Positions 44,653 through 57,479 of a stretch of DNA of 64,000 nucleotides are shown here, in pieces. Made by a program: the position numbers and the translations under genes. Position 1 is the stretch's first letter. Each line of letters begins with the position of its first letter. The notes under the pieces were generated by a model. The model was not told the origin of the DNA, did no database searches, and saw only the letters and a program-made list of their open reading frames with translations. Source of the stretch: an uncultured Sphingomonadaceae bacterium (lineage in GTDB: Bacteria > Pseudomonadota > Alphaproteobacteria > Sphingomonadales > Sphingomonadaceae); NCBI GenBank assembly GCA_903871605.1, contig CAIQHF010000038.1:62001-126000 (forward strand), in the 5' to 3' direction.

Positions 44653-45852
44653 TCACCCCACGTGGCTTGAGCTGAGCGCCCTCAGCACATCCTGCCCGCC
44701 GCAAACGCCCACCAGCCGGTCGCCGTCGGTCAGCAGCACCGGGTGGCCCGATACCGACAGGATGCGGATCAGCGTCCTGACCGGGACGCTGGCGGGGCAG
44801 GCGACGATGCCCTCAGGGACGCTCGCGAGGGCTTCGGGATCGGCGAGCGCGGTCACCGCATAGGGTTGGTCGTCGAGCCGCACGTCTTCGCGGCCGGCGC
44901 CGACGCCGACGCAGTAGCGGGCGGCCTCGTCGAGAAGATGCCTGCCGTCGCGCACGGCCAGCAGGCGCATCGGGCGCATCACCGTCTCGCCGGTCATCAC
45001 GTTGAGCGGGTTCATGTGGCGCACGAACTCGGCGACATAGGGGGTGGCGGGGCGCAGCACGATGTCCTCGCCGGTGCCGCTCTGGATGATCCGCCCGCCC
45101 TCGAGGATCGTCACCCGGTCGCCGAGCTTCAGCGCCTCGTCGAGATCGTGGCTGACGAAGACGATCGTCTTCTGCACCTTGGCCTGCAGGTCGAGCAGCT
45201 CGTCCTGCAGCTTCGCCCGGATCAGCGGATCGAGCGCCGAAAAGGGCTCGTCCATCAGCAATATGTCGGCGTCGGTGGCGAAAGCGCGCGCGAGGCCGAC
45301 GCGCTGTTGCATGCCTCCCGATAGCTCGCCCGCATAGCGATCGGCCCAGGCGTCGAGCCCGACCAGCGCCAGCCGCTCGTCGACGATCCGCGTGATCTCG
45401 GGCCGCGGCGTGCCGCGCAGCTCGAGCCCGAAGGCGACATTCTCGCGCACCGTGCGCCACGGCAGCAGCCCGAATTGCTGGAACACCATCGCGATGCGGT
45501 GGCGGCGGATGTGGCGCAGCACGCTCTCGGGGCAGTTGGCGACGTCCTTCGATCCGACCCCGTCGCGCACCAGCACATGGCCGCGCGTCACCCGGTTGAG
45601 CCCGTTTGCGGCGCGCAGCAGCGTCGACTTGCCCGATCCGGACAGCCCCATCAGCACCGAGATCGTGCCCTGCTCGACAGCTAGGCTGGCGCCGGTGACG
45701 CCGAGCACGACGCCGGTCCTGCTGGCGATCGTCGCGCGGTCGGCGCCGCCGTCGAGCAGCGCCTGCGCGGCGGCGAGATCGGCCGCGCGGCGCCTGCCGC
45801 TGCTGTTGCAGAACAGGATGTCGACATCGCGGAATTCGAGCGCGACGGTCAT
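44653..45852 (-). CDS. choV: Choline/glycine betaine ABC importer, ATPase subunit
   Basis: ABC ATPase of the OpuA/ProV/ChoV type, 399 residues. Walker A is GLSGSGKST (near 69-77), the signature is LSGGMQQRVGLARA, and Walker B is DILLMDEPFSALDP. The N-terminal 60 residues before Walker A and the C-terminal CBS-like part (PEGIVACPASVPVRTLIRILSVSGHPVLLTDGDRLVGV) fit the osmolyte-importer subfamily. Its ATG overlaps the stop of the permease gene (ATGA at 45849-45852). The same frame stays open far upstream on this strand, but only the part from 45852 is coding. Probably induced by choline through the BetI-like operators at 47681/47771. Confidence 0.93.
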   Translation of the reverse strand: MTVALEFRDVDILFCNSSGRRRAADLAAAQALLDGGADRATIASRTGVVLGVTGASLAVEQGTISVLMGLSGSGKSTLLRAANGLNRVTRGHVLVRDGVGSKDVANCPESVLRHIRRHRIAMVFQQFGLLPWRTVRENVAFGLELRGTPRPEITRIVDERLALVGLDAWADRYAGELSGGMQQRVGLARAFATDADILLMDEPFSALDPLIRAKLQDELLDLQAKVQKTIVFVSHDLDEALKLGDRVTILEGGRIIQSGTGEDIVLRPATPYVAEFVRHMNPLNVMTGETVMRPMRLLAVRDGRHLLDEAARYCVGVGAGREDVRLDDQPYAVTALADPEALASVPEGIVACPASVPVRTLIRILSVSGHPVLLTDGDRLVGVCGGQDVLRALSSSHVG

Positions 45853-47651
45853 GGCCTGGCCTTCTGCGTGGTGCGCGTCATGCGGTCGAGGATGATCGCG
45901 ACGAGCACGATCGCGAAGCCCGCCTCGAAGCCCATGCCGACCTGCACCGTGTTGAGCGCGCGCACCACCGGCACGCCGAGCCCGCCCGCGCCGACCAGCG
46001 CCGCGATCACCACCATCGACAGGCTGAGCATGATGCATTGCGTCACCCCCGCGATGATCGACGGCGCGGCGGCGGGCAGCTCGACCTTGGTGAGCAATTG
46101 CCACGGCGTCGCGCCGAACGATTCGCCTGCCTCGATCAGCGGCCTGGGGACGGACAATATGCCCAATTGGGTGAGCCGGATCGGCGCCGGCAGCGCGAAG
46201 ATGATCGTCGAGATCAGCCCCGGCACCACGCCCAGCCCGAACAGCACCAGCGTCGGGATCAGATAGACGAACGTCGGCAGCGTCTGCATCAGATCGAGCG
46301 CGGGCTGGATGAACTGGAAGGCGCGCGGCCGGTGCCCCGCCCAGATGCCGACGGGCACGCCGATCAGCGTCGAGACGAACGCGGCGAACAGGACGAGCGA
46401 CAGCGTCTCCATCGTCGCTGCCCAATAGCCCTGGTTGATGATGAACAGCTGCGCGAGCAGCACGAAAATGACGAGCGGGACCGAACGCCGCAGATACCAG
46501 GCGAGCCCGCCGACCAGCGCGACGAACAGCAAGGGCGGGACGGCCGACAGCAGCGCGGTCAGCCCGTTGATCGACGAGCCGAGCACGAGCGTGACGAAAT
46601 CGAACAGGCCGTGATGCGCCTTGATGTCGTCGACCAGGCTGCTCATCCACTGGCCAACGGGGATCTTGTTCTCGGTAAGGAAGCCGCTGCCCGCGGCGGG
46701 CCTGAGCGAGGCGAGCACCGCGGGTTCGCCCGGCTTGCCGTCGACCGTCTGCACGCCGGCGAGCCAGGCGCGGAGCCTGTCGGGATGCGCGCGCAGCCAT
46801 TTGGTCGCCGCGACGCCGGGATCGCCAGTGTCGGTCACGGCCTGCATCAGCGCATTCTCGTCGCCGACCGCGAAGGCGAGATTGTGCAGCAGGCGGCCGA
46901 CATTGGGGCATTGCTTCACATAGCCCGCGCGCACGTCGGTCGAGACGGTGGCGCTGCCATAGTTTGGGCCGAACACGCTGTCGCCGCCCATCAGATAGCG
47001 CATCTTGAAACGGTCGTTCATCGGATGCGGCTGCCAGCCGAGGAAGACGATCGGCGCCTTGGTCCTCACCGATCTCTCGACCTCGGCGAGCATGCCCTGC
47101 TCGCTGCTCTCGATCAGCTGGAAATTGCCGAGGCCGAAATTGTTGGTGCGGATCATGCCGAGCACCAGCCGGTTGCCGTCGTTGCCCGGCTCGATCCCAT
47201 AGATTTTGTGGCCGAGCGGCCCCGCGAACTTCTGGATCGACGCGAAGTCCTTGAGGCCCTGGTCGTAGAGATAGGCGGGCACCGCGAGCGTGTAGCGCGC
47301 GTCTGCCAGGTTGACGCGGACGACCTCGACCGAATGGTCGGCGACGAACGGCTTGATGTCGGCGGTCTGCATCGGCATCCAATTGCCGAGGAAGACGTCG
47401 ACATCCTTGTTGCGCAGCCCGTTGAAGGTGACGGGCACCGACAGCACGGTGATCTTGGGCTGGTAGCCCAGTCCGGCGAGCAGCCGGGCGGTCAGCCCCG
47501 TCGTCGCGGTCACGTCCGCCCAGCCGACGTCGGACAGGCGCACCGCGGCGCAGGACGGCGGATCCGCGGCGGCGGCGGGCGCACCCGCGGCAAGCGCGAG
47601 CAGCAGCAGCGCCAACCGGGCCATCCATCCGATCGTCGTGCGATCCCTCAT
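45849..47651 (-). CDS. choW: Choline/glycine betaine ABC importer: binding protein fused to permease
   Basis: Single protein of 600 residues. After a signal peptide (ARLALLLLALAAGAPAAAA) comes a choline/betaine-binding domain (AAVRLSDVGWADVTATTGLTARLLAGLGYQ, DVFLGNWMPMQ, APIVFLGWQPHPMN) to about residue 310. A linker and six or so membrane helices with the ABC permease coupling loop (EAGESFGATPWQLLTKVELPAAAPSI) complete it. Normally ChoX and ChoW are separate; here the receptor is tethered to the outer face of the pore, N-terminally, unlike the C-terminal fusion of lactococcal OpuABC. Divergent from the betI-betB gene. Confidence 0.92.
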   Translation of the reverse strand: MRDRTTIGWMARLALLLLALAAGAPAAAADPPSCAAVRLSDVGWADVTATTGLTARLLAGLGYQPKITVLSVPVTFNGLRNKDVDVFLGNWMPMQTADIKPFVADHSVEVVRVNLADARYTLAVPAYLYDQGLKDFASIQKFAGPLGHKIYGIEPGNDGNRLVLGMIRTNNFGLGNFQLIESSEQGMLAEVERSVRTKAPIVFLGWQPHPMNDRFKMRYLMGGDSVFGPNYGSATVSTDVRAGYVKQCPNVGRLLHNLAFAVGDENALMQAVTDTGDPGVAATKWLRAHPDRLRAWLAGVQTVDGKPGEPAVLASLRPAAGSGFLTENKIPVGQWMSSLVDDIKAHHGLFDFVTLVLGSSINGLTALLSAVPPLLFVALVGGLAWYLRRSVPLVIFVLLAQLFIINQGYWAATMETLSLVLFAAFVSTLIGVPVGIWAGHRPRAFQFIQPALDLMQTLPTFVYLIPTLVLFGLGVVPGLISTIIFALPAPIRLTQLGILSVPRPLIEAGESFGATPWQLLTKVELPAAAPSIIAGVTQCIMLSLSMVVIAALVGAGGLGVPVVRALNTVQVGMGFEAGFAIVLVAIILDRMTRTTQKARP

Positions 47652-47680
47652 TTGGCGATTCCCCCAGCCCCAACGTCGAA

Positions 47681-47696
47681 TTGACTAAAAGTTCAA
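47681..47696. promoter_or_regulatory. Candidate BetI-type operator before the choline importer
   Basis: TTGACTAAAAGTTCAA, a 16-bp dyad (TTGA-N8-TCAA) 29 bases upstream of the importer start codon on the minus strand. It matches in length and outer bases the sites at 47771, 54660 and 54762. Repression by the BetI-like domain encoded next door is inferred. Confidence 0.6.
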
Positions 47697-47770
47697 CAAA
47701 ACTGCAAGGACGAAGTGCAGCGGGCTCGCGATTGCGCTTTTCAGGCCCGCCGCATCTCGGTATCACAGCA

Positions 47771-47786
47771 TTGAACGTCCGTTCAG
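47771..47786. promoter_or_regulatory. Candidate BetI-type operator at the betI-betB start
   Basis: TTGAACGTCCGTTCAG, arms TTGAACG/CGTTCA(G) around TC, ending 10 bases before the GTG start and running into the ribosome-binding AGGAGAAGG. The similarity to known BetI sites (TTGAACGTCC-like) supports autoregulation. Its position over the leader would block transcription or early elongation. Confidence 0.68.
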
Positions 47787-47796
47787 GAGAAGGTGC

Positions 47797-49827
47797 GTGC
47801 GGCAGACGGCGGCGATCCCCGCGGGCGATGACAAGCGCTCGCGCCAGCTGATCGAAGTGACCATAGACAGCCTCGCCGAGGTCGGCTTCGTCGGCACCAC
47901 GCTGGCGCAGGTCGCCGGGCGCGCGGGCGTCTCGCCGGGGCTGGTCGCGCATTATTTCGGCGACAAGGACGGGCTGCTCGAGGCGGCGTTCCGCTCGCTC
48001 GCCGCCCGGCTCGGCGACAATATGCTCGTCCGCCTCGCGCAGGCGGGCGATGCGCGGGCGCGGCTGCAGGCGGTGATCGACGCCAATCTCGGCCCGCAGG
48101 AGGTCGAGGATCGCACCAGCAAGGTGTGGCTCGCCTTCTGGGGCCAGGTGCTCCACATGCCGCGTCTGCTGCGCATCCAGCGCGTGTATCAACGGCGCAT
48201 GCTGTCCAACCTGCGCCATGCGCTGCGGCAGCTGCTGCCCGCCGACGAGGTGCCGCGCGTTGCGGCGATGATCGCGGCGATGATCGATGGGGTGTGGCTG
48301 CGCGGTGCGCTCTCGGGCTGGACCGAGACCGACAGCGAGACCGCGCGCGCGATGCTCGGCTCGTTCGTCGACAACCATATCGGCAGCCTGCCGCCACGCC
48401 CGGGCGCGCAGCGCGCACGGCCGGCCACGCTGTCGCCGGTCAACCCCGCGACCGGCGAGACGCTCGCGTCGATCGCGGTCACGACGCCCGAGACACTCGA
48501 CGCGAAGGTGGCGCGCGCCAAGGCGGCGCAGGTCGAATGGGCCGCGCTCATGCCCGTCGAGCGCGGACGTGTGCTGCGCAGGGCCGCCGACATATTGCGC
48601 GCGCGCAATGGCGAGCTCGCCCGGCTCGAGACGCAGAATACGGGCAAGCCGATCCAGGAGACCGAGGCGGTCGACGTGCTGTCGGGCGCGGACTGCCTCG
48701 AATATTTTGCCGGGGTCGCAGCCACGATCGCGGGACAGCATCTCGATCTGGGCGCGGGCGCGTTCGGCTTTACGCGCCGCGAGCCGCTGGGCGTCGTCGC
48801 GGGCGTCGGCGCGTGGAACTACCCGCTGCAGATCGCCTGCTGGAAGGCGGCGCCCGCGCTCGCCTGCGGCAATGCGATGATCTTCAAGCCCGCCGAGCAG
48901 ACCCCGCTCACCGCCGCGGCTCTCGAAGACGTGTTCCGCGAGGCGGGTCTGCCCGACGGCGTGTTCCAGGTCGTGCAGGGCTATGGCGATCTCGGCCGTG
49001 CGATGGTCGAGCATCGGGACATCGCCAAGGTGTCGCTCACCGGATCGGTGCCGACCGGGCGTGCGGTGATGGCGGCCGCGGCGAAGGGCCTGAAGGCGGT
49101 GACGCTCGAGCTAGGCGGCAAGTCGCCGCTGATCGTGTTCGCCGATGCCGACGTCGACAATGCGGTGTCAGGCGCGATGCTCGCCAATTTCTATTCGAGC
49201 GGGCAGGTCTGCTCGAACGGCACGCGCGTTTTCGTCCAGCGCCCGATCCTCGCGCGCTTCCTCGAGGCGCTGACCGCGCGCACCGCCAGGCTCCGCATCG
49301 GCGACCCGCTCGATCCCGCGACCCAGATCGGCCCGCTCGTCTCCGAGGCGCAGATGGATCTGGTGCTCGGCCATATCGGTCGCGCGCGGCGCGAGGGCGT
49401 GCGGCTGGTGGCGGGCGGGCGCCGGCTGACCGAGGGCGCGCTCGGCCGCGGCTATTTCGTCGAGCCGACGATCTTCGAAGCGAGCGACGACGGCGCCGCG
49501 ATCGTCCGCGACGAGGTGTTCGGCCCGGTGATGACCGTGCTCGGTTTCGACGACGAGGCCGAGGTGGTCGCCCGCGCCAACGACACCGAATTCGGTCTCG
49601 CCGCGGGTGTCTTCACGCAGGATCTGACACGCGCCCACCGCGTGATCGCGAAGCTCGACGCGGGGACGTGCTGGGTCAACCAGTATAACATCACCCCCGT
49701 CGAGATGCCGTTCGGCGGCGTCAAGGCGTCGGGAATCGGGCGCGAGAACGGGCTGGCAGCGATCGAACATTATACGCGGATCAAGAGCGTCTATGTCGCG
49801 ATGACCGGCATCGACTGCCCCTATTGA
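47797..49827 (+). CDS. betB: BetI repressor - betaine aldehyde dehydrogenase BetB fusion
   Basis: One frame of 676 residues. Residues 1-200 are a complete TetR-type BetI ([50 protein letters not shown], then [34 protein letters not shown]). From about 207 ([14 protein letters not shown]) to the end lies BetB, with Asn341 (GAWNYPLQ), Glu438 ([10 protein letters not shown]) and Cys472 ([13 protein letters not shown]). BetB lacks only its first 20 or so residues; no stop and no separate start lies between. The GTG start follows CAGGAGAAGG. BetI normally senses choline, and BetB makes glycine betaine from betaine aldehyde. Followed by betA. Confidence 0.93.
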
Positions 49828-49838
49828 GCGACGCGCGG

Positions 49839-51497
49839 ATGACCGAGACCTTCGACTATATCATCGTCGGCGCGGGGTCCGCCGGCTGCGTGCTCGCCGA
49901 TCGGCTGAGCGCCGGCGGCCAGGCGACCGTGCTGCTGCTCGAATATGGCGGATCGGACCGCTCGGTGGTGATCCAGATGCCGAGCGCGCTGTCGATCCCG
50001 ATGAACCGCGATCGCTACAATTGGCGCTACGAGACCGAGCCCGAGCCGCATCTCGGCGGGCGACGGATGCACACGCCGCGCGGCAAGGTGATCGGCGGCT
50101 CGTCGTCGATCAACGGGATGGTCTATGTGCGTGGCAACCCGATGGATTTCGAGCGCTGGCGAAGCGAGGGCGCGGCGGGCTGGGGCTATGCCGACGTGCT
50201 GCCCTATTTCCGGCGCGCCGAAATGCGCGAGGAGGGCGGCGACGGCTATCGCGGGGGCGAGGGCAGGCTCCACACGCGCTACGGCGCGATGCGCAATCCG
50301 CTCTATCGGGCGTTCCTGAACGCCGCCGAGCAGGCGGGCTATCCACTCACCGACGATATCAATGGCGGGCAGCAGGAGGGCTTCGGCCGGATGGACATGA
50401 CGGTCCACAAGGGCCGTCGCTGGAGCGCCGCCAACGCCTATCTGAGGCCCGCCCTGGCGCGGCCCAACCTCAGGCTGGTCACCCACGCGCTCGCCGACCG
50501 CATCCTGTTCGAGGGGCGCCGCGCGGTCGGAATCGCCTATCGGCGCGGCGCCAGCGAGCACCACGCGATGGCGCGGCGCGAGCTGATCGTCTCAGGCGGG
50601 CCGATCAATTCGCCGCAGCTTCTCAAGCTCTCGGGCGTCGGCCCCGCCGACGAGCTGCGCGCGCTCGGCATCCCCGTCGTCCACGACCTGCCGGGGGTGG
50701 GGGAGAATCTGCAGGACCATCTCGAATTCTATTTCCAGATGGAATGCACGCAGCCGGTGTCGCTCTTCTCGGCGATGAACCCATGGTCGAAGGCGGCGAT
50801 CGGCGCGCGCTGGCTGCTCCGCAAGGACGGGCTGGGGGCGACCAACCATTTCGAGAGCTGCGGCTTCATCCGCAGTCGCGCCGGCATCCGTTACCCCGAC
50901 ATCCAGTTCCACTTCCTTCCGCTCGCGGTCGCCTATGACGGCAGCACGATGGCCGAGGGGCATGGCTATCAGGCGCATGTCGGGCCGATGCGGTCGAAGA
51001 GCCGCGGCCATGTCCGGCTACGCAGCACGGACGCCGCCGAGAAGCCGCTGATCCGCTTCAACTATATGAGCCACCCCGACGACTGGACCGAGATGCGCGC
51101 CTGCGTCCGCCTGACGCGCGAGATCTTCGCACAACGGGCGCTCGCGCCGTTCACCGGCCGCGAGCTCCAGCCCGGCGCCGATGTCGTCACCGACGAGGCG
51201 ATCGACGCCTTCGTGCGCGACAAGGTGGAGAGCGCCTATCATCCCTCGTGCACCTGCAAGATTGGCGGCGACGACGATCCCATGGCGGTGGTCGACGCCG
51301 AGTTGCGCGTGCGCGGGGTCGAGGGGCTGCGCGTGGTCGATTCGTCGGTGATGCCGTCGGTGACGACGGGCAATCTCAACGCGCCGACGATCATGATCGG
51401 CGAGAAGGGGGCGGACCACATCCTCGGCCGCGGGCTGCTCGCGCCGTCCAACGCGCACTATCATCGCGCCGAGCGCTGGGAGAGCGCGCAGCGCTGA
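49839..51497 (+). CDS. betA: Choline dehydrogenase
   Basis: GMC oxidoreductase of 552 residues oxidising choline to betaine aldehyde at the membrane. FAD-binding [20 protein letters not shown] is at the N-terminus, [14 protein letters not shown] and [17 protein letters not shown] are the two GMC signatures, and [11 protein letters not shown] holds the catalytic His468. The C-terminal [27 protein letters not shown] is BetA-typical. It starts 11 bases after the fusion gene; a TTG overlapping that stop (49824) would add five residues. Its product is the substrate of the BetB half of the preceding protein. Confidence 0.95.
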
Positions 51498-51501
51498 GGC
51501 G

Positions 51502-52542
51502 TCAGCGCGCGAGCATCTCTTGCGGTGCGACGACCCAGCCGCGATCGGCGCCGAGCGGCGGCGTCAGTTTCGCCGCGGCCTCGCTCGCCGCGCGTCGCGT
51601 CCGTTCGCCGCGCAGCGCAGGCGTCGCGCTGCCGTGGCGATCCACCCAGATACGTACGCCGCCCGCGTAGAACAGCATCGGCCAGTCGCTCGGGCTGTCG
51701 CCGGCGGCGAGGACCGGGCGGCGGACCGGATCGATATAGGCCTGGATGCCGCCGACCTTGCCCTCGTACCAGGTGAGCGGCGTCCACAGCGTCGGCGTCA
51801 TCACCATCCGCGCGTGGCGGGCGGGCGTGTAGGCGGCATCGAGGAAATGCCCCGCGGCGATCTGCTGCCGCGCGGTCGTGACGCTGCCGTCAGCGGGATC
51901 GCGCAGCAGCAGCGTGACGCCGATCACGTCCTGCGGCGCGATGTCGAGCCCGTAGCGCGGATCGGCGGCAACCATCCGTGCCAGCTCCTCCGAGGCGGCA
52001 GTGACCAGATAGACACGCACACCATGCGTGCGCAGATAGGCGAAGAGCTGGCGCTGCGCGGCCATCACGCGCGGCGGCATCACCGTGTCGGACACCGTCC
52101 TCCCGTCCACCCGGTAGCGCACCGGGATCGGTTTCGCGCCGGCGATCATCCGGTCGACCTCGCGCTTGAGCGTGCCGAGCGGAATCCCCGAGAAGATCTG
52201 CGCCACCCAGGGGTAGCAGAGCTTGTCGTCGACGTCGCAGAGGCGCCGGTAATAGCCGTAGAGGCTCTCGCCCGGGCGCAGCGGGATCGGCGCGAGCGCC
52301 GGGTCGAGCTTCGCGGCGGACAGCATCCCCTCATTTTCGAGATAGGGGAGCAGCGCCTCCTCGATATCGTATTTCCAGCTGGTATTGTCGCCGTCGAAGG
52401 TGGCGTAGGAGCCCGCCGGGGCATGGTCGACCGCGGCCTCGATCGACGCGCGCGCGGCCTGCGGCCACAGGTCGAGCGGCGTCGCGACGGCGGCGGCCGG
52501 CAACAGCGCGCCGACCATCCAAGCCAGCAGCGCGCGCCTCAC
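51502..52542 (-). CDS. pchP: Phosphorylcholine phosphatase (HAD superfamily)
   Basis: Exported HAD phosphatase of 346 residues with a signal peptide (LLAWMVGALLPAAAVA). Motif I with following residues, FDGDNTSWKYDIEEALLPYLEN (nucleophile Asp50 and Asp52), is nearly that of Pseudomonas PchP, and the late LAAGDSPSDWPML supplies motif IV acids. It removes phosphate from phosphocholine in the periplasm, giving choline for the importer. The ATG overlaps the stop of the phospholipase C gene by 4 bases, and its end is convergent with betA across 4 bases. Confidence 0.92.
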   Translation of the reverse strand: MRRALLAWMVGALLPAAAVATPLDLWPQAARASIEAAVDHAPAGSYATFDGDNTSWKYDIEEALLPYLENEGMLSAAKLDPALAPIPLRPGESLYGYYRRLCDVDDKLCYPWVAQIFSGIPLGTLKREVDRMIAGAKPIPVRYRVDGRTVSDTVMPPRVMAAQRQLFAYLRTHGVRVYLVTAASEELARMVAADPRYGLDIAPQDVIGVTLLLRDPADGSVTTARQQIAAGHFLDAAYTPARHARMVMTPTLWTPLTWYEGKVGGIQAYIDPVRRPVLAAGDSPSDWPMLFYAGGVRIWVDRHGSATPALRGERTRRAASEAAAKLTPPLGADRGWVVAPQEMLAR

Positions 52543-54605
52543 GCCATCGTCGCCTGCCCGATCGCGGGATCCGATCGGCTCGGCCGTCCCGTCTCGACAT
52601 GGCCGGCGAAGCGGCGGCTCCAGCCCGTGCCCGGCTGCTCGACGGCGAAATCATACCAATGGTCGCTCGCCGCGACCGGATAGCGCAGCGTCCGGCTCGC
52701 GCCGGGCGCCAGCGTCACGGTCCGGTGCATGCCGCCATAGGCGATCGGCCGCAACGCAAGCGTCGTCGGCGCCGCACCATGGTTGGCGAGATGGACGAGG
52801 ATCGTGTCGCCGTCCGCCGACGGGTCGATAGACGCGAGCGCCGATCGCTCGCCGTGGCCGTCGCCGGCAAAGCCGCGCAGGAAGCCATTGGGCCCGTGCA
52901 CCGCGACCGCATAGGGCCGGCGGGTGGAGAGACCGGGCAGCGTGTCGGCGAGCGCGGTGCCGGCGGCGAGGCTGTAGCTCCACGGGCCGACATGCTGGTC
53001 GGGCGCATAGGCGGTGAACACCGCGCCCGCAGCGCCGTCGTTGACGAAGGCGAGCGTCAATCCGCCATCGGCCCCCGCAGGGCGCTCGTGGACATGCAGC
53101 CGATAGGGCAGCGCGCGCGCCGGCCGCTGACCCGGTTCCTGGAGCGGCAGCGTGCCATGCGCCGGGATGGCGGGCGGCGGCAGCTTGGCCTCGGCCATCA
53201 CGCGCTGCATCGCGTCGGCCGTGCGGGGCAGCACGCCCAGCGCCGAGCCGTCGGCATCGGCGAAATCGAACATCGTGGTGAGGTCGCCCGTCACCATCCG
53301 GCGCCAGGGGCTGATATTGGGCTCCATCACGCCGAAGCGCCGCTCGAGGAAGCGGATCACCGAGGTGTGGTCGAACAGCTGCGAATTGACCCAGCCGCCA
53401 CGCGACCAGGGCGAGACGACGATCAGCGGCACGCGTGGGCCGAGCCCGACCGCCTGGCCGCGATAATCCTCGCCTTGCGGATCGACGCTGCTCTTGCCCT
53501 GCGCCGCGGTGAGCGCGGGGACGGGCGGGGGGACATGATCGAAAAATCCGTCATTCTCGTCGTAATTGAGGATCAGCGCGGTCTTCGCCCAAACCTCGGG
53601 ATTGGCGACGAGCGCCGCGATCAGCCTGGCGGTGAGCGACTCGCCGAGCGCGGGCGGCGCCTCGGGATGCTCGGAATATTTGGTGGGCGCCACGATCCAC
53701 GAGACCTGCGGTAGCGTCCCGCCGGCGACGTCAGCGGCAAAGGCGGCTACGAGATGCTCGGCCTGGCTCTGCTCGGCGTTGGCGGCGGTTGAGCCGGCGA
53801 CGATCGAGCGGCCGCGTTGATAGAGAATATGGTCGGCCGGCAGGCCGCGGAAGCGCTTGAAGAAGGCGAGCGAGTTGTCGCCGAAATTGTCATATTCCTG
53901 GTAGAGCTTCCACGAGACGCCCGAGGCCTGGAGGCGTTCGGCGTAGGTCGTCCAGCCCGCGGCTTCGAAGCCGGGCTTGTCCTTTGCGGCGTCGCCGGTC
54001 CAGTTGGCGTCGTCGGCGTTGGAGACCGCCTGCGCACCCGCATCGCCGACCGACAGCCCGCTGGTGCCGGTGAACAGGAACATGCGGTTGGGGTTGGTCG
54101 GGCCGTGGATCGAGGCATGATAGCCGTCGGCGATCGTGAAGGCGTCGGCGAGCGCGTGATAATAGGGGATGTCCGCGCGGCGGAAATGCGCCATCGTCAG
54201 CGGCGTCTTGTGCTTGACCCAGACGTCGTAGTTCGCCCACTCGGCGGCGTCGCCCTTCCAGCTATGATCGAGGCTCTTGATCAGCTGTCCGCTGGTCGTC
54301 GCGCTGTCCATGTGGAAGGGCAGCAGTTCGCCTAGACCATCGGCGCCGGGCTGGTGGAACACGCTCCTGCCGCCGCGCAGCGTCACCGGACGCGGATCGC
54401 CATAGCCGCGCACGCCGGCGAGCGTGCCGAAATAATGATCGAACGAGCGGTTCTCCTGCATCAGGATCACGACATGCTCGACGTCGCGGATCGATCCGGT
54501 GCGGCGGTTGGCGGGCAGCGTCAGCGCCTGTGCGACGCCGGCGGGCAGCGTGCCCGCGGCCACCATCGCGGCGACGGCCTTGAGAAGGTCACGACGGTCC
54601 GTCAT
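52539..54605 (-). CDS. Phosphocholine-specific phospholipase C, Tat-exported
   Basis: Phospholipase C of the PlcH/PlcN acid-phosphatase-like family, 688 residues. A Tat signal (TDRRDLLKAVAAMVAAGTLPAG) is followed by the active-site region VEHVVILMQENRSFDHYFGTLAGVRGYGDPR, then LNYDENDGFFDHVPPPVPA and PLIVVSPWSRGGWV. C-terminal Ig-like segments end in HVETGRPSRSDPAIG. It cleaves phosphatidylcholine or sphingomyelin to phosphocholine, which PchP then dephosphorylates. Two TTGA-N8-TCAA dyads lie upstream, linking it to choline control. Confidence 0.94.
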   Translation of the reverse strand: MTDRRDLLKAVAAMVAAGTLPAGVAQALTLPANRRTGSIRDVEHVVILMQENRSFDHYFGTLAGVRGYGDPRPVTLRGGRSVFHQPGADGLGELLPFHMDSATTSGQLIKSLDHSWKGDAAEWANYDVWVKHKTPLTMAHFRRADIPYYHALADAFTIADGYHASIHGPTNPNRMFLFTGTSGLSVGDAGAQAVSNADDANWTGDAAKDKPGFEAAGWTTYAERLQASGVSWKLYQEYDNFGDNSLAFFKRFRGLPADHILYQRGRSIVAGSTAANAEQSQAEHLVAAFAADVAGGTLPQVSWIVAPTKYSEHPEAPPALGESLTARLIAALVANPEVWAKTALILNYDENDGFFDHVPPPVPALTAAQGKSSVDPQGEDYRGQAVGLGPRVPLIVVSPWSRGGWVNSQLFDHTSVIRFLERRFGVMEPNISPWRRMVTGDLTTMFDFADADGSALGVLPRTADAMQRVMAEAKLPPPAIPAHGTLPLQEPGQRPARALPYRLHVHERPAGADGGLTLAFVNDGAAGAVFTAYAPDQHVGPWSYSLAAGTALADTLPGLSTRRPYAVAVHGPNGFLRGFAGDGHGERSALASIDPSADGDTILVHLANHGAAPTTLALRPIAYGGMHRTVTLAPGASRTLRYPVAASDHWYDFAVEQPGTGWSRRFAGHVETGRPSRSDPAIGQATMA

Positions 54606-54659
54606 CGGGGAACGCCTCCATGCGCGTGGATCGCAGCGAAGCCTGCGTCCTAACCCGGA

Positions 54660-54675
54660 TTGAATATGCGCTCAA
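54660..54675. promoter_or_regulatory. Candidate BetI-type operator upstream of phospholipase C (proximal)
   Basis: TTGAATATGCGCTCAA, 54 bases before the phospholipase start codon. On the minus strand its TTGAGC, followed after 17 bases by TAGGAC, could serve as a weak promoter, so a bound repressor would cover the -35 element. Confidence 0.5.
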
Positions 54676-54761
54676 GCGGCGGTGCGGCGGACGGCCGCGC
54701 GTGGCTGCCACCGATCCTGCGCGCTGCCGATGCCGTCAACGCGGCAAAGCCCGCGCCGCGA

Positions 54762-54777
54762 TTGAACATCTGTTCAA
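54762..54777. promoter_or_regulatory. Candidate BetI-type operator upstream of phospholipase C (distal)
   Basis: TTGAACATCTGTTCAA, seven-base perfect arms around TC, the same centre as the site at 47771. It lies 156 bases before the phospholipase start and 63 bases beyond the end of the TonB receptor gene, so it can only serve the phospholipase operon. Confidence 0.62.
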
Positions 54778-54839
54778 GCGTGACGCGGTCCCGCCCACCG
54801 CGAGCGCGTGTCCTTACGCGCCCCCGTCTCGGCCGGTTG

Positions 54840-57479
54840 TCAGAAGCTGTAGCCGACCTTGACGCCGTAGGTCATCGGCCGGATCACGACCTCGGATTTG
54901 ATGAACTGCGCCGAGGAGGTGAAGGTGCTGGCGTGGCTGTTGGTCAGGTTCTCGCCGAACAGCGACACGGTCCATGCGTCGCGCTGCATCCCGATCTGGG
55001 CATCGAGCAGCGTGTAGGCCGACATGCGGTAGCGCAGCAGCGTGGTGCCCGGGATGACCACGCCGTCGCCCGACGGGTAGGTCGAGGGCTGATTGTAGGT
55101 CGCGCCCGTGTAGGACACGCCACCGGCGACGAAATAGCCGAGCCCCGCGCCCCCCAGCCACTCGTAGCGCGCGCGCAGGTCGGCCTGGACGTGCGGCGCA
55201 TAGGGCAGGCTCGAGCCTTCGGAACCGAACGGCGTCTGCAGCGGGATCTCGACGCCGCTCTTATAGTAGGAGGTGATGCACTTGCCGAAGCTCGTCGACC
55301 CGGCGACGTTGGAGATGAAGCAGGGCGACGAGACCTGCTTGCTGTCGTTGTAGGTGGCGCCGATCTGGACGCTGAGCCCCGAGATCGGCCGCGCGACGAT
55401 CTGCGCCTCGATCCCCTTGACGTGGAAATTGGCGCCGTTGGTGACGAAGCTGGTGTTGCCGAAGCCGCCGGCCGGGTTGAAGAACCCGATCTGCACATTG
55501 TTCCAGTCCATATAATAGGCGGAGAGATTGAGCTGGACCTTGTGGTCGAACAGGTCGGTCTTGAGGCCGATCTCGTAGTTGGTGAGCGTATCGGGCTTGT
55601 AGCCATTGGGGCGCAGCAGCTGCGCGGTGCCGTTGATGTCGGGCAGGATCAGCTTGGTCGCGCGGTTGAAGCCGCCTGGGCGGAAGCCCTGGCTGAACGT
55701 CGCATAGACCAGCGTGTGATCCGCGGGCTTCCACGACAGCGACGCGCGGCTCTTGAAGCCGTGATAGACGACATGATCGTTATTGGCGTCGATATTGACG
55801 TTGCCCGATCCGGCGACCGCGCAGACCATCGTTTGATAGCAGTTGCTGGCATAGGTCTCGAACTGCGAGCCGACCTCGAATTCCTTATAGTGATAATAGC
55901 GCGTGCCGCCGGTCAGCGTCAGGTTGGGCAGGATGTCGACATCGACTGAGCCGAAGAAGGCATATTGGTCGTAGCCGCGCTGCACGTCCTCGCCGAACGC
56001 GGTGTTGCTGGGCTCGAGCCCGGGCTGGTTGGCGGTCGAACCCGGGACGGTCTGGACGACGCCCGAGCAGGCGGCGTCCGCCGCGATTAGCGCGGTGGTG
56101 CAGGTCGGGATCGTCTTATAGTCGAAATTCATCACGTCCTTGATGCGGAAGCGCTCCTGATAGGCGCCGACGATCAGGCGGATCCGCTTGTCATCCGGGG
56201 TCGAGATGCGGAGCTCGTTGCTCAGATGCGTGTTGCGCACCGTGTCGTGCCAATAGGCGACCGGCGAGTAGCAATAGGGCGTGCCCGATCCCCAGCCGGT
56301 GCTGCCGCCGGTGCACTGATAATACATGCCGCCGCCGGTGCGCGAATAATTGCTGTAATCCTGCTGCGTCTCGATATGCCGGTTCATATAGGCGCCGGTA
56401 TAGACGACCTTGAGGAAGTCGCCGATCTTGCCGTTGAGCGTCCACGCCGTGTTCGAATAGCTGTCCTTGTTGTAGCTGGGCGTGAATACCGTGGTCTGCA
56501 GTGCGCCGAGCGGCTGGAAGTCCGAGCCGGTCGGGTAGGTGGCGAAGGTGCCCTGCGCGTCCATCCGCTGATAGCTTTCGGAGACGAGCAAATCCCAATC
56601 GGGCGCGATCGCGAGCTTCGCCGAGATGCGGCCACCGGTATAGTCGACCGGATTGAAGTTCTTTTTGGCCAGCGCATAATTATTATACTGGCCGTCATTG
56701 GCCTGTTGGCTCGCCGGCAGCGTCTTGCCGCCATTGTTGAGATAGTAATTGCCCGAGTCCGAATCCGAGCGCGTGAAGCTGCTCGGCACGTTGTCGATAT
56801 AGCCGCCGCGATGATCGTCGTAGAACACTGCGCGGACCGCGAGGCGATCCTGGATGATCGGGATGTTGATCGTCGCGTTGAACGAGCCGTTGGGCGCGCC
56901 GCCGACGGTCCCGCCCGCGCTACCCTCGATATGCCCGCCGAAATCGTGGAGGTTGGGCTTGTTGGTGATGTAGCGCACCGCGCCGGCTTCCGCGCCGCCG
57001 CCGAACAGCGTGCCCTGCGGCCCCTCGAGCACCTCGACGCGCTCCATGTCGGCCATGTAGACGTCGGCGTTGCGCGCCGGGAACTGCATCGACTGGTCGT
57101 CGAGATACAGCGCGACGTTGGGGAAATAGGCGATCGTCGCGGACGACTGGTTGCCCGCGAAGCCCGTCGACAGGCCGCGCATGAAGATCGCGCCAGAGCC
57201 CGGGCCGTTGCTGCCGAAGGTGACGTTGGGGGTATATTTGAGCAGGTCGTTGAACGTGGTGACGTTGAGCTTGGACAGCGTGTCGCCGCTCAGCGCCTGG
57301 ACGGTCAGCGGCACCTTTTGGATGCTTTCGTTGCGACGCTGCGCGGTGACGATGATGTCGCCGTTCGACGCCTGCGGCGCCGACGTGTCGACCGGCGCGG
57401 CGGCGGTATCGGCCGCGGTCGCGGCGGTGCCGCCCAGCAGCGCGACGAGCGCGCAGGAGATCAGATAGTCGGCCTTCAT
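54840..57479 (-). CDS. TonB-dependent outer-membrane receptor
   Basis: Receptor of 879 residues. There is a signal peptide (LISCALVALLGGTAATA), a TonB-box-like DIIVTAQRRNES near 43, and a plug domain with LLKYTPNVTFGSNGPGSGAIFMRGLS and ERVEVLEGPQGTLFGGGAEAGAVRYITNKP. The long 22-strand barrel ends in YGVKVGYSF with the terminal Phe needed for outer-membrane insertion. It lies between the phospholipase operon and the LysR gene, so a phospholipid- or phosphonate-derived ligand is possible; the many sphingomonad paralogues prevent a firm call. There is no regulatory N-terminal STN domain. Confidence 0.94.
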   Translation of the reverse strand: MKADYLISCALVALLGGTAATAADTAAAPVDTSAPQASNGDIIVTAQRRNESIQKVPLTVQALSGDTLSKLNVTTFNDLLKYTPNVTFGSNGPGSGAIFMRGLSTGFAGNQSSATIAYFPNVALYLDDQSMQFPARNADVYMADMERVEVLEGPQGTLFGGGAEAGAVRYITNKPNLHDFGGHIEGSAGGTVGGAPNGSFNATINIPIIQDRLAVRAVFYDDHRGGYIDNVPSSFTRSDSDSGNYYLNNGGKTLPASQQANDGQYNNYALAKKNFNPVDYTGGRISAKLAIAPDWDLLVSESYQRMDAQGTFATYPTGSDFQPLGALQTTVFTPSYNKDSYSNTAWTLNGKIGDFLKVVYTGAYMNRHIETQQDYSNYSRTGGGMYYQCTGGSTGWGSGTPYCYSPVAYWHDTVRNTHLSNELRISTPDDKRIRLIVGAYQERFRIKDVMNFDYKTIPTCTTALIAADAACSGVVQTVPGSTANQPGLEPSNTAFGEDVQRGYDQYAFFGSVDVDILPNLTLTGGTRYYHYKEFEVGSQFETYASNCYQTMVCAVAGSGNVNIDANNDHVVYHGFKSRASLSWKPADHTLVYATFSQGFRPGGFNRATKLILPDINGTAQLLRPNGYKPDTLTNYEIGLKTDLFDHKVQLNLSAYYMDWNNVQIGFFNPAGGFGNTSFVTNGANFHVKGIEAQIVARPISGLSVQIGATYNDSKQVSSPCFISNVAGSTSFGKCITSYYKSGVEIPLQTPFGSEGSSLPYAPHVQADLRARYEWLGGAGLGYFVAGGVSYTGATYNQPSTYPSGDGVVIPGTTLLRYRMSAYTLLDAQIGMQRDAWTVSLFGENLTNSHASTFTSSAQFIKSEVVIRPMTYGVKVGYSF

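Follow-up and report, generated by a model that had tools for sequence, protein, structure and literature searches.

Can a choline-responsive repressor and an enzyme of choline oxidation be made as a single working protein, and what would be gained by making them so? The question is raised by an open reading frame of an uncultured Sphingomonadaceae bacterium, located at 47797..49827 (+) in the window, i.e. the whole stretch of 64,000 nucleotides analysed here. The frame encodes 676 amino acids and runs from a BetI-type regulator into a betaine aldehyde dehydrogenase (BetB). A study on Ruegeria pomeroyi describes the BetI proteins of E. coli, Sinorhizobium and Acinetobacter as choline-responsive repressors (PMC12442346).

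Results

The gene starts with a GTG codon preceded by AGGAG 7 nt upstream and has no internal stop according to the ORF listing. Its BetI part (47797..48381, +) contains the Pfam domains TetR_N (residues 18–64) and the BetI-type TetR_C_6 (residues 86–195), found with 42.3 bits (PF00440, cut-off 24) and 93.3 bits (PF13977, cut-off 27), respectively, and the window protein passed the BetI model TIGR03384 with 205.4 bits against a cut-off of 201.3 (G000:C38:109830-110378). A linker of 15 codons (48382..48426, +; residues 196–210), none of them ATG, GTG or TTG, leads to the BetB part (48427..49824, +; residues 211–676), in which the Aldedh domain covers residues 211–665 and the native N-terminal strand is absent. 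The BetB model NF009725 matched residues 209–676 with 747.8 bits (cut-off 593), and, as this match begins at profile position 21 (positions 21–488 of 488), the first 20 or so BetB residues are missing. The second betaine-aldehyde dehydrogenase model, TIGR01804, was matched over positions 13–467 of 467 with 642 bits, which is below its cut-off of 668.6. The initial annotation had read the frame as one polypeptide passing without a stop from BetI into a near-complete BetB, which lacks about 20 N-terminal residues and retains Asn341, Glu438 and Cys472; the 676-aa frame and the domain matches bear this out.

Of 156 fetched loci whose BetB was at least 48% identical, 97 carry the same fusion, in both alpha- and gammaproteobacteria; this set was enriched for fusions by the design of the search and includes some genomes twice, from two collections. 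The 97 fused loci contain 92 distinct BetB sequences, and the catalytic Asn341, Glu438 and Cys472 are identical in all of them. The fusion recurs elsewhere at 55–84% identity, including the single-contig genomes G141, G186, G323 and G173, and is also present on the complete plasmid NZ_CP023037.1. Recurrence in sphingomonads, which had been suggested for checking, was confirmed, and it extends far beyond them: carriers were found in Ancylobacter, Azorhizobium, Aureimonas, Methylobrevis, Faunimonas, Rhodomicrobium, Acidocella, Acidisoma, Gluconacetobacter and Komagataeibacter as well as in Caulobacterales, Sphingomonadales and Steroidobacteraceae. The RefSeq protein WP_254058047.1 of Komagataeibacter saccharivorans is the same fusion of 676 aa, followed by betA; it is named betB, for the enzyme only, and its annotation begins 30 nt downstream of the point where the match to the window protein begins. 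Many genomes and projects contributed to the 97 loci with this architecture; a frameshift, a missing stop or an assembly error behind the window's fusion was therefore ruled out, and we give such an error practically no weight.

The frequency of the fusion was estimated from several draws of genomes. Within the window's family, 19 of the 397 genomes searched had a match at 1e-150 or better and 16 of these 19 carried the fusion; the other three (G003, G049 and G034) have a BetB without an adjoining BetI. Fused genes were present in 3 of the 49 genomes with a match at 1e-140 in a class-wide draw (385 searched) and in 5 of the 111 matching genomes in a phylum-wide draw (398 searched). A scan of named genomes gave 77 fusions among the best 80 loci, a set biased to full-length matches.

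All 92 fused rows of the BetB tree (149 rows) fell within one clade of 98 rows (SH-aLRT 98), and one branch of the BetI tree (113 rows; support 96) separated 91 fused rows from 22 split ones. Both trees are quick, unrooted searches (the root was not inferred) supported by SH-aLRT only, with long branches flagged. The fewest changes needed were seven on the BetB tree and one on the BetI tree, so that many independent fusions are unneeded. Both trees fit a single old origin of the fusion, which would have been followed by losses of the BetI part. According to the initial annotation, the fusion had lost the BetI stop and the first BetB residues; rather than to a local event of this kind, the sequences point to an old fusion of single origin, and the N-terminal strand is missing in only part of the fused genes.

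In the six remaining members of the fused clade (L009, L011, L012, L111, L140 and L145), BetB has no neighbouring BetI, the exact placement of L011, L140 and L145 inside the clade being weakly supported. The BetB N-terminal strand is absent in L009, L011 and L012, like in the fused sphingomonad genes, and is kept in L140. A search for BetI in the genomes G003, G049, G034, G770 and G561, three of which are only 74–83% complete, gave no match above 80 bits. Loss of the BetI half is the simpler reading because L009, L011 and L012 are without the strand and no BetI was found in these five genomes. G003, whose BetB is 90% identical and whose genome is 80% complete, was the closest relative found; it shows no BetI, rather than betI and betB as separate genes. 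The record of L111, which is entitled Actinobacteria bacterium 21-64-8, contains a BetB 85% identical to that of the window and stands beside G141 on the tree; it is probably a misbinned sphingomonad contig.

Both halves of the fusion are under purifying selection. In 19 pairs of fused genes, dN/dS was 0.008–0.145 for the BetI part and 0.021–0.180 for BetB, the value for BetI being the higher one in 10 of the 19 pairs.

Aquibaculum (L126) and Indioceanicola (L134) are the nearest relatives with split genes; betB follows close behind betI in both, and in L126 it does so in the same frame. This arrangement is what would be expected if the two genes had merged simply because stop and start lay close together, each half then working as it would in an ordinary bet operon and their joining being of no regulatory significance. 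The linkers, which are free to vary in length and letters, and the lack of helical phasing of the paired sites described below agree with such a merger of convenience. Nevertheless, the fusion has persisted through deep divergence in alpha- and gammaproteobacteria, it is accompanied by paired operators and the N-terminal strand of BetB is gone in many descendants, and we therefore consider this explanation rather doubtful.

The stretch between the aligned parts comprises 10–53 codons among the fused loci, and alanine and proline are often abundant in it. A BetB-like N-terminal strand is retained within it in most Hyphomicrobiales and Caulobacterales rows and in the acetic-acid group, and is absent in the sphingomonads and the gamma group. 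No in-frame ATG, GTG or TTG was present around the junction in 21 of the 97 fused loci, and a start codon with a Shine-Dalgarno-like stretch was found near it in 8 of the 97. In the window, the nearest start codon, an ATG, lies 25 codons ahead of the BetB part and has no Shine-Dalgarno-like stretch. An internal start from which BetB would be translated separately is thus unsupported as a general rule. Several Ancylobacter retain an ATG near the old betB start and, together with the eight loci with Shine-Dalgarno-like stretches, this suggests that free BetB may also arise in some carriers.

An AlphaFold2 model of the fusion, built from 38 fused sequences (mean pLDDT 82, pTM 0.65), consists of an all-helical first part and a second part of mixed helices and strands, with pLDDT below 50 at residues 201–206 between them and also in the dehydrogenase stretches 319–326, 626–631, 635–642 and 645–662. 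In a Foldseek search against the PDB, the best matches of the second part were betaine-aldehyde dehydrogenases; all of the best 50 rows were aldehyde dehydrogenases and do not inform on the BetI half. The model leaves the relative placement of the two parts undefined. A proposed alternative is a PutA-like switch, in which DNA binding by the BetI half would change when NAD or betaine aldehyde occupies the dehydrogenase. Enzyme and repressor being in one chain under selection, and the analogy with PutA, are consistent with this proposal. However, the linker of variable length with its low model confidence suits a loose tether, and no fixed arrangement of the domains was predicted at a pTM of 0.65; a switch of this kind thus seems unlikely.

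A BetI-type palindrome, TTGAACGTCCGTTCAG, lies at 47771..47786, 10 nt before the start codon of the fusion and exactly where the initial annotation had placed a binding site. A second, weaker palindrome, TTGACTAAAAGTTCAA, was found at 47681..47696, between choXW and the fused gene, the two being 90 bp apart. With the half-site taken from the window's site, and with copies of one genome retained, we detected a palindrome like TTGAAY-N4-RTTCAA (score of at least 11 of 14, half-site spacing 2) within 300 nt upstream in 89 of 95 fused loci. Such sites occurred at 4.67/kb upstream of the fused genes, 0.10/kb within them and 0.055/kb in the remaining parts of these loci; at other half-site spacings, the upstream density was at most 0.35/kb. 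According to single-base shuffles of 118 upstream regions, scores this high at any spacing would be expected in about 7 of them. Split betI-betB operons have a related palindrome, often with a TTGATTG-type half-site. No such palindrome occurs in the sequence fetched for the BetI-less loci L011, L012, L111, L140 and L145, and L009/L110 shows a single weak match, which is located within the transporter gene, 817 nt upstream. The DNA-binding half of the fusion is thus still accompanied by BetI-type operators. A scan of 47600–47850 for sigma-70 promoters and terminators found nothing.

The operators might also be read by another TetR protein, the BetI half being an appendage that does not bind DNA. 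Stand-alone BetI-like proteins scoring 108–119 bits against TIGR03384 (cut-off 201.3) do occur in 12 of 19 fused genomes, and the fused BetI itself is under this cut-off in 15 of the 19. On the other hand, the next-best BetI-like protein in the window's genome reached 82.8 bits, the BetI-less loci have no site near betB, and H52, Y53 and F54 at the end of the helix-turn-helix (HTH) are at least 97% identical across the 97 fused loci. We therefore regard an inert BetI half as very improbable.

Pairing of the operators was counted with a motif covering both the fused and the split site types. At least two sites within 300 nt upstream were found in 55 of 90 fused loci versus 2 of 22 split ones; from −500 to +150, the counts were 76 of 89 versus 2 of 22. 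Where a divergent choline transporter was present, at least two sites occurred in 45 of 52 fused and 1 of 12 split loci; among the loci without such a transporter, two sites were found in 17 of the 34 that are fused and in 1 of the 8 that are split. A single site was left in 13 of 89 fused loci, seven of them with a divergent transporter. The Fisher values for the link between fusion and pairing (1.8e-11 and 4.5e-7) ignore kinship and overstate independence because the whole fused set shares one ancestry; on these trees, the link amounts to one evolutionary contrast.

In 14 sphingomonad loci (L010, L041–L043, L045–L048, L050, L113, L123–L125 and L127), which in turn share one ancestry, the second site falls within the HTH-coding sequence, 110–111 bp from the first and at about +64 relative to the codon for residue 11. 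Their relatives L044, L049, L051 and L108 have no palindrome in the HTH-coding sequence. Control blocks further into the fused genes contained a site in 2 of 1164 cases. The distances between paired sites, which were located here with the half-site of the window, showed no helical phasing (best p about 0.08), and rigid looping is thus not favoured.

The genes around the fusion in the window are also concerned with choline. The next gene downstream is betA, encoding choline dehydrogenase (49839..51497, +; TIGR01810 with 820.8 bits, cut-off 732.1), and in 92 of the 95 loci whose flank is long enough, betA is found within 300 nt behind the fusion. A choline ABC transporter is encoded divergently. 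Its substrate-binding protein ChoX and permease ChoW form one chain (45849..47651, −), and the ATPase is encoded by choV (44653..45849, −, the upper boundary being approximate; TIGR03415 with 498.6 bits, cut-off 483.75). In the 55 loci that extend at least 4 kb to either side, the flanks contain matches to choX in 37, to choW in 39 and to choV in 41 cases, the choV query possibly catching other ABC ATPases as well. The ChoX-ChoW chain of 600 aa passes the NCBIfam cut-off in each of its parts, and an open frame in L009 looks alike.

A gene for phosphocholine-specific phospholipase C is located at 52539..54605 (−; TIGR03396 with 803.5 bits, cut-off 580.25). It overlaps with a gene for a HAD-family protein (51502..52542, −; PF12710 with 27.5 bits, cut-off 27; no NCBIfam match), which is perhaps a phosphocholine phosphatase. 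Upstream of the phospholipase C gene, within 54606–54839, there are two BetI-type palindromes, TTGAATATGCGCTCAA at 54660..54675 and the exact palindrome TTGAACATCTGTTCAA at 54762..54777, 102 bp apart, and the position of these sites makes the gene a possible further target of the fusion. A TonB-dependent receptor gene (54840–57479, −) lies directly upstream of the phospholipase operon, and receptors about 40–45% identical to it were seen near 11 fused loci.

The window contains four palindromes with at most one mismatch, two at choXW-betIB and two at phospholipase C, versus 0.04 expected. The whole genome of 4.28 Mb has eight distinct sites, including the four at the window's two choline loci, and one match to the reversed control pattern; TTGAACATCTGTTCAA is the only exact site found in it. 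The other four sites (two on C6, one on C26 and one on C51) have no choline gene beside them, as judged by eye on six-frame ORFs. A split-type site, TTGATTGGCCGTTCAA, was noted at G000:C26:28073, with no choline gene recognised by eye alongside. Six further genomes gave 4–17 sites with the pattern and 0–9 with the control, and single sites elsewhere therefore prove nothing. One site in G323 lies just upstream of a phospholipase C gene. In G003, which is without BetI, no site was found at the phospholipase C promoter, the upstream sequence there being unlike that of the window. This promoter was rejected as an independent test, since rearrangement explains the missing sites equally well.

Discussion

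The fused gene of the window belongs to an architecture shared by many proteobacteria, and in our opinion there is a good probability that its single chain is both a working repressor and an enzyme of choline use. The fusion would combine the choline-responsive repressor BetI with the second enzyme of choline oxidation, BetB, and would be autoregulatory, repressing its own operon betIB-betA. Judging by the positions of the sites, the divergent choline importer and the phospholipase C operon would also be repressed, and choline would relieve the repression, as is known for BetI. Induction would produce repressor and enzyme in a 1:1 ratio, and because of this ratio the system would shut itself off rapidly once choline is gone.

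BetB-type dehydrogenases are dimers of dimers and TetR proteins are dimers. A fused tetramer may thus carry two BetI dimers and grip two operators, mostly 90–190 bp apart, which would result in looped repression; a BetB tetramer with two DNA-binding dimers fits the paired sites. We tentatively suggest, as an idea that may well prove wrong, that the dimeric TetR repressor became a bivalent, DNA-bridging one by borrowing the tetramer of the enzyme and that the operators became paired in most of the lineage, the second one lying inside the repressor's own HTH-coding sequence in some sphingomonads. The assembly state of the enzyme would then set the strength of repression.

The operons betIBA with separate BetI and BetB proteins, such as those of Paracoccus and Pantoea, share with the fusion the same domains, the order betI-betB-betA, a divergent choline transporter and a BetI-type palindrome, and the window protein passes the cut-offs of both TIGR03384 and NF009725. 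In contrast to these operons, the fusion is a single polypeptide, its BetB lacks about 20 N-terminal residues in the window and there are usually two operators instead of one. The two-BetI system of Ruegeria pomeroyi, as far as it is described in the available part of the report, has the choline-responsive control by BetI in common with the fusion; its betI box, ATTGACG*CGTCAAT, looks similar to the palindrome of the fused loci and one divergon has two overlapping palindromes (PMC12442346). It differs in having two separate BetI proteins, with betB outside the cluster and no fused protein, according to the same part of the source, where the word fusion denotes a PCR method (PMC12442346).

The fusion had also been compared with enteric PutA. 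PutA is a catabolic dehydrogenase and a repressor of its own genes in one chain, and consists of ribbon-helix-helix and proline dehydrogenase domains. The comparison is fair as far as the manner of working is concerned, i.e. an enzyme and a repressor in one chain, a likeness suggested by two halves that are intact in sequence. It does not extend to the domains: the fusion joins a TetR fold to BetB, and only TetR_N, TetR_C_6 and Aldedh were found by Pfam in the window protein, without any of the PutA domains. Repressors that are joined to an enzyme under their own control are, to our knowledge, rare.

In agreement with the initial annotation, which knew of no described BetI-BetB fusion, no description was found among the matches listed in a search of the open-access literature. 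The fusion may have escaped description because annotation can name it plain betB. A table of phototrophic bacteria in a genome survey gives Acidiphilium strains as having proXWVbetBA without betI (PMC7824335). These clusters may be unnoticed BetI::BetB fusions, and surveys reporting bet clusters without betI may have overlooked the fusion. The fusion is widespread and old, and is undescribed among the matches listed in the open-access literature. It allows a direct test of what is gained by fusing a sensor with an enzyme, which may be fixed stoichiometry, sensing of the enzyme's state or bivalent DNA binding.
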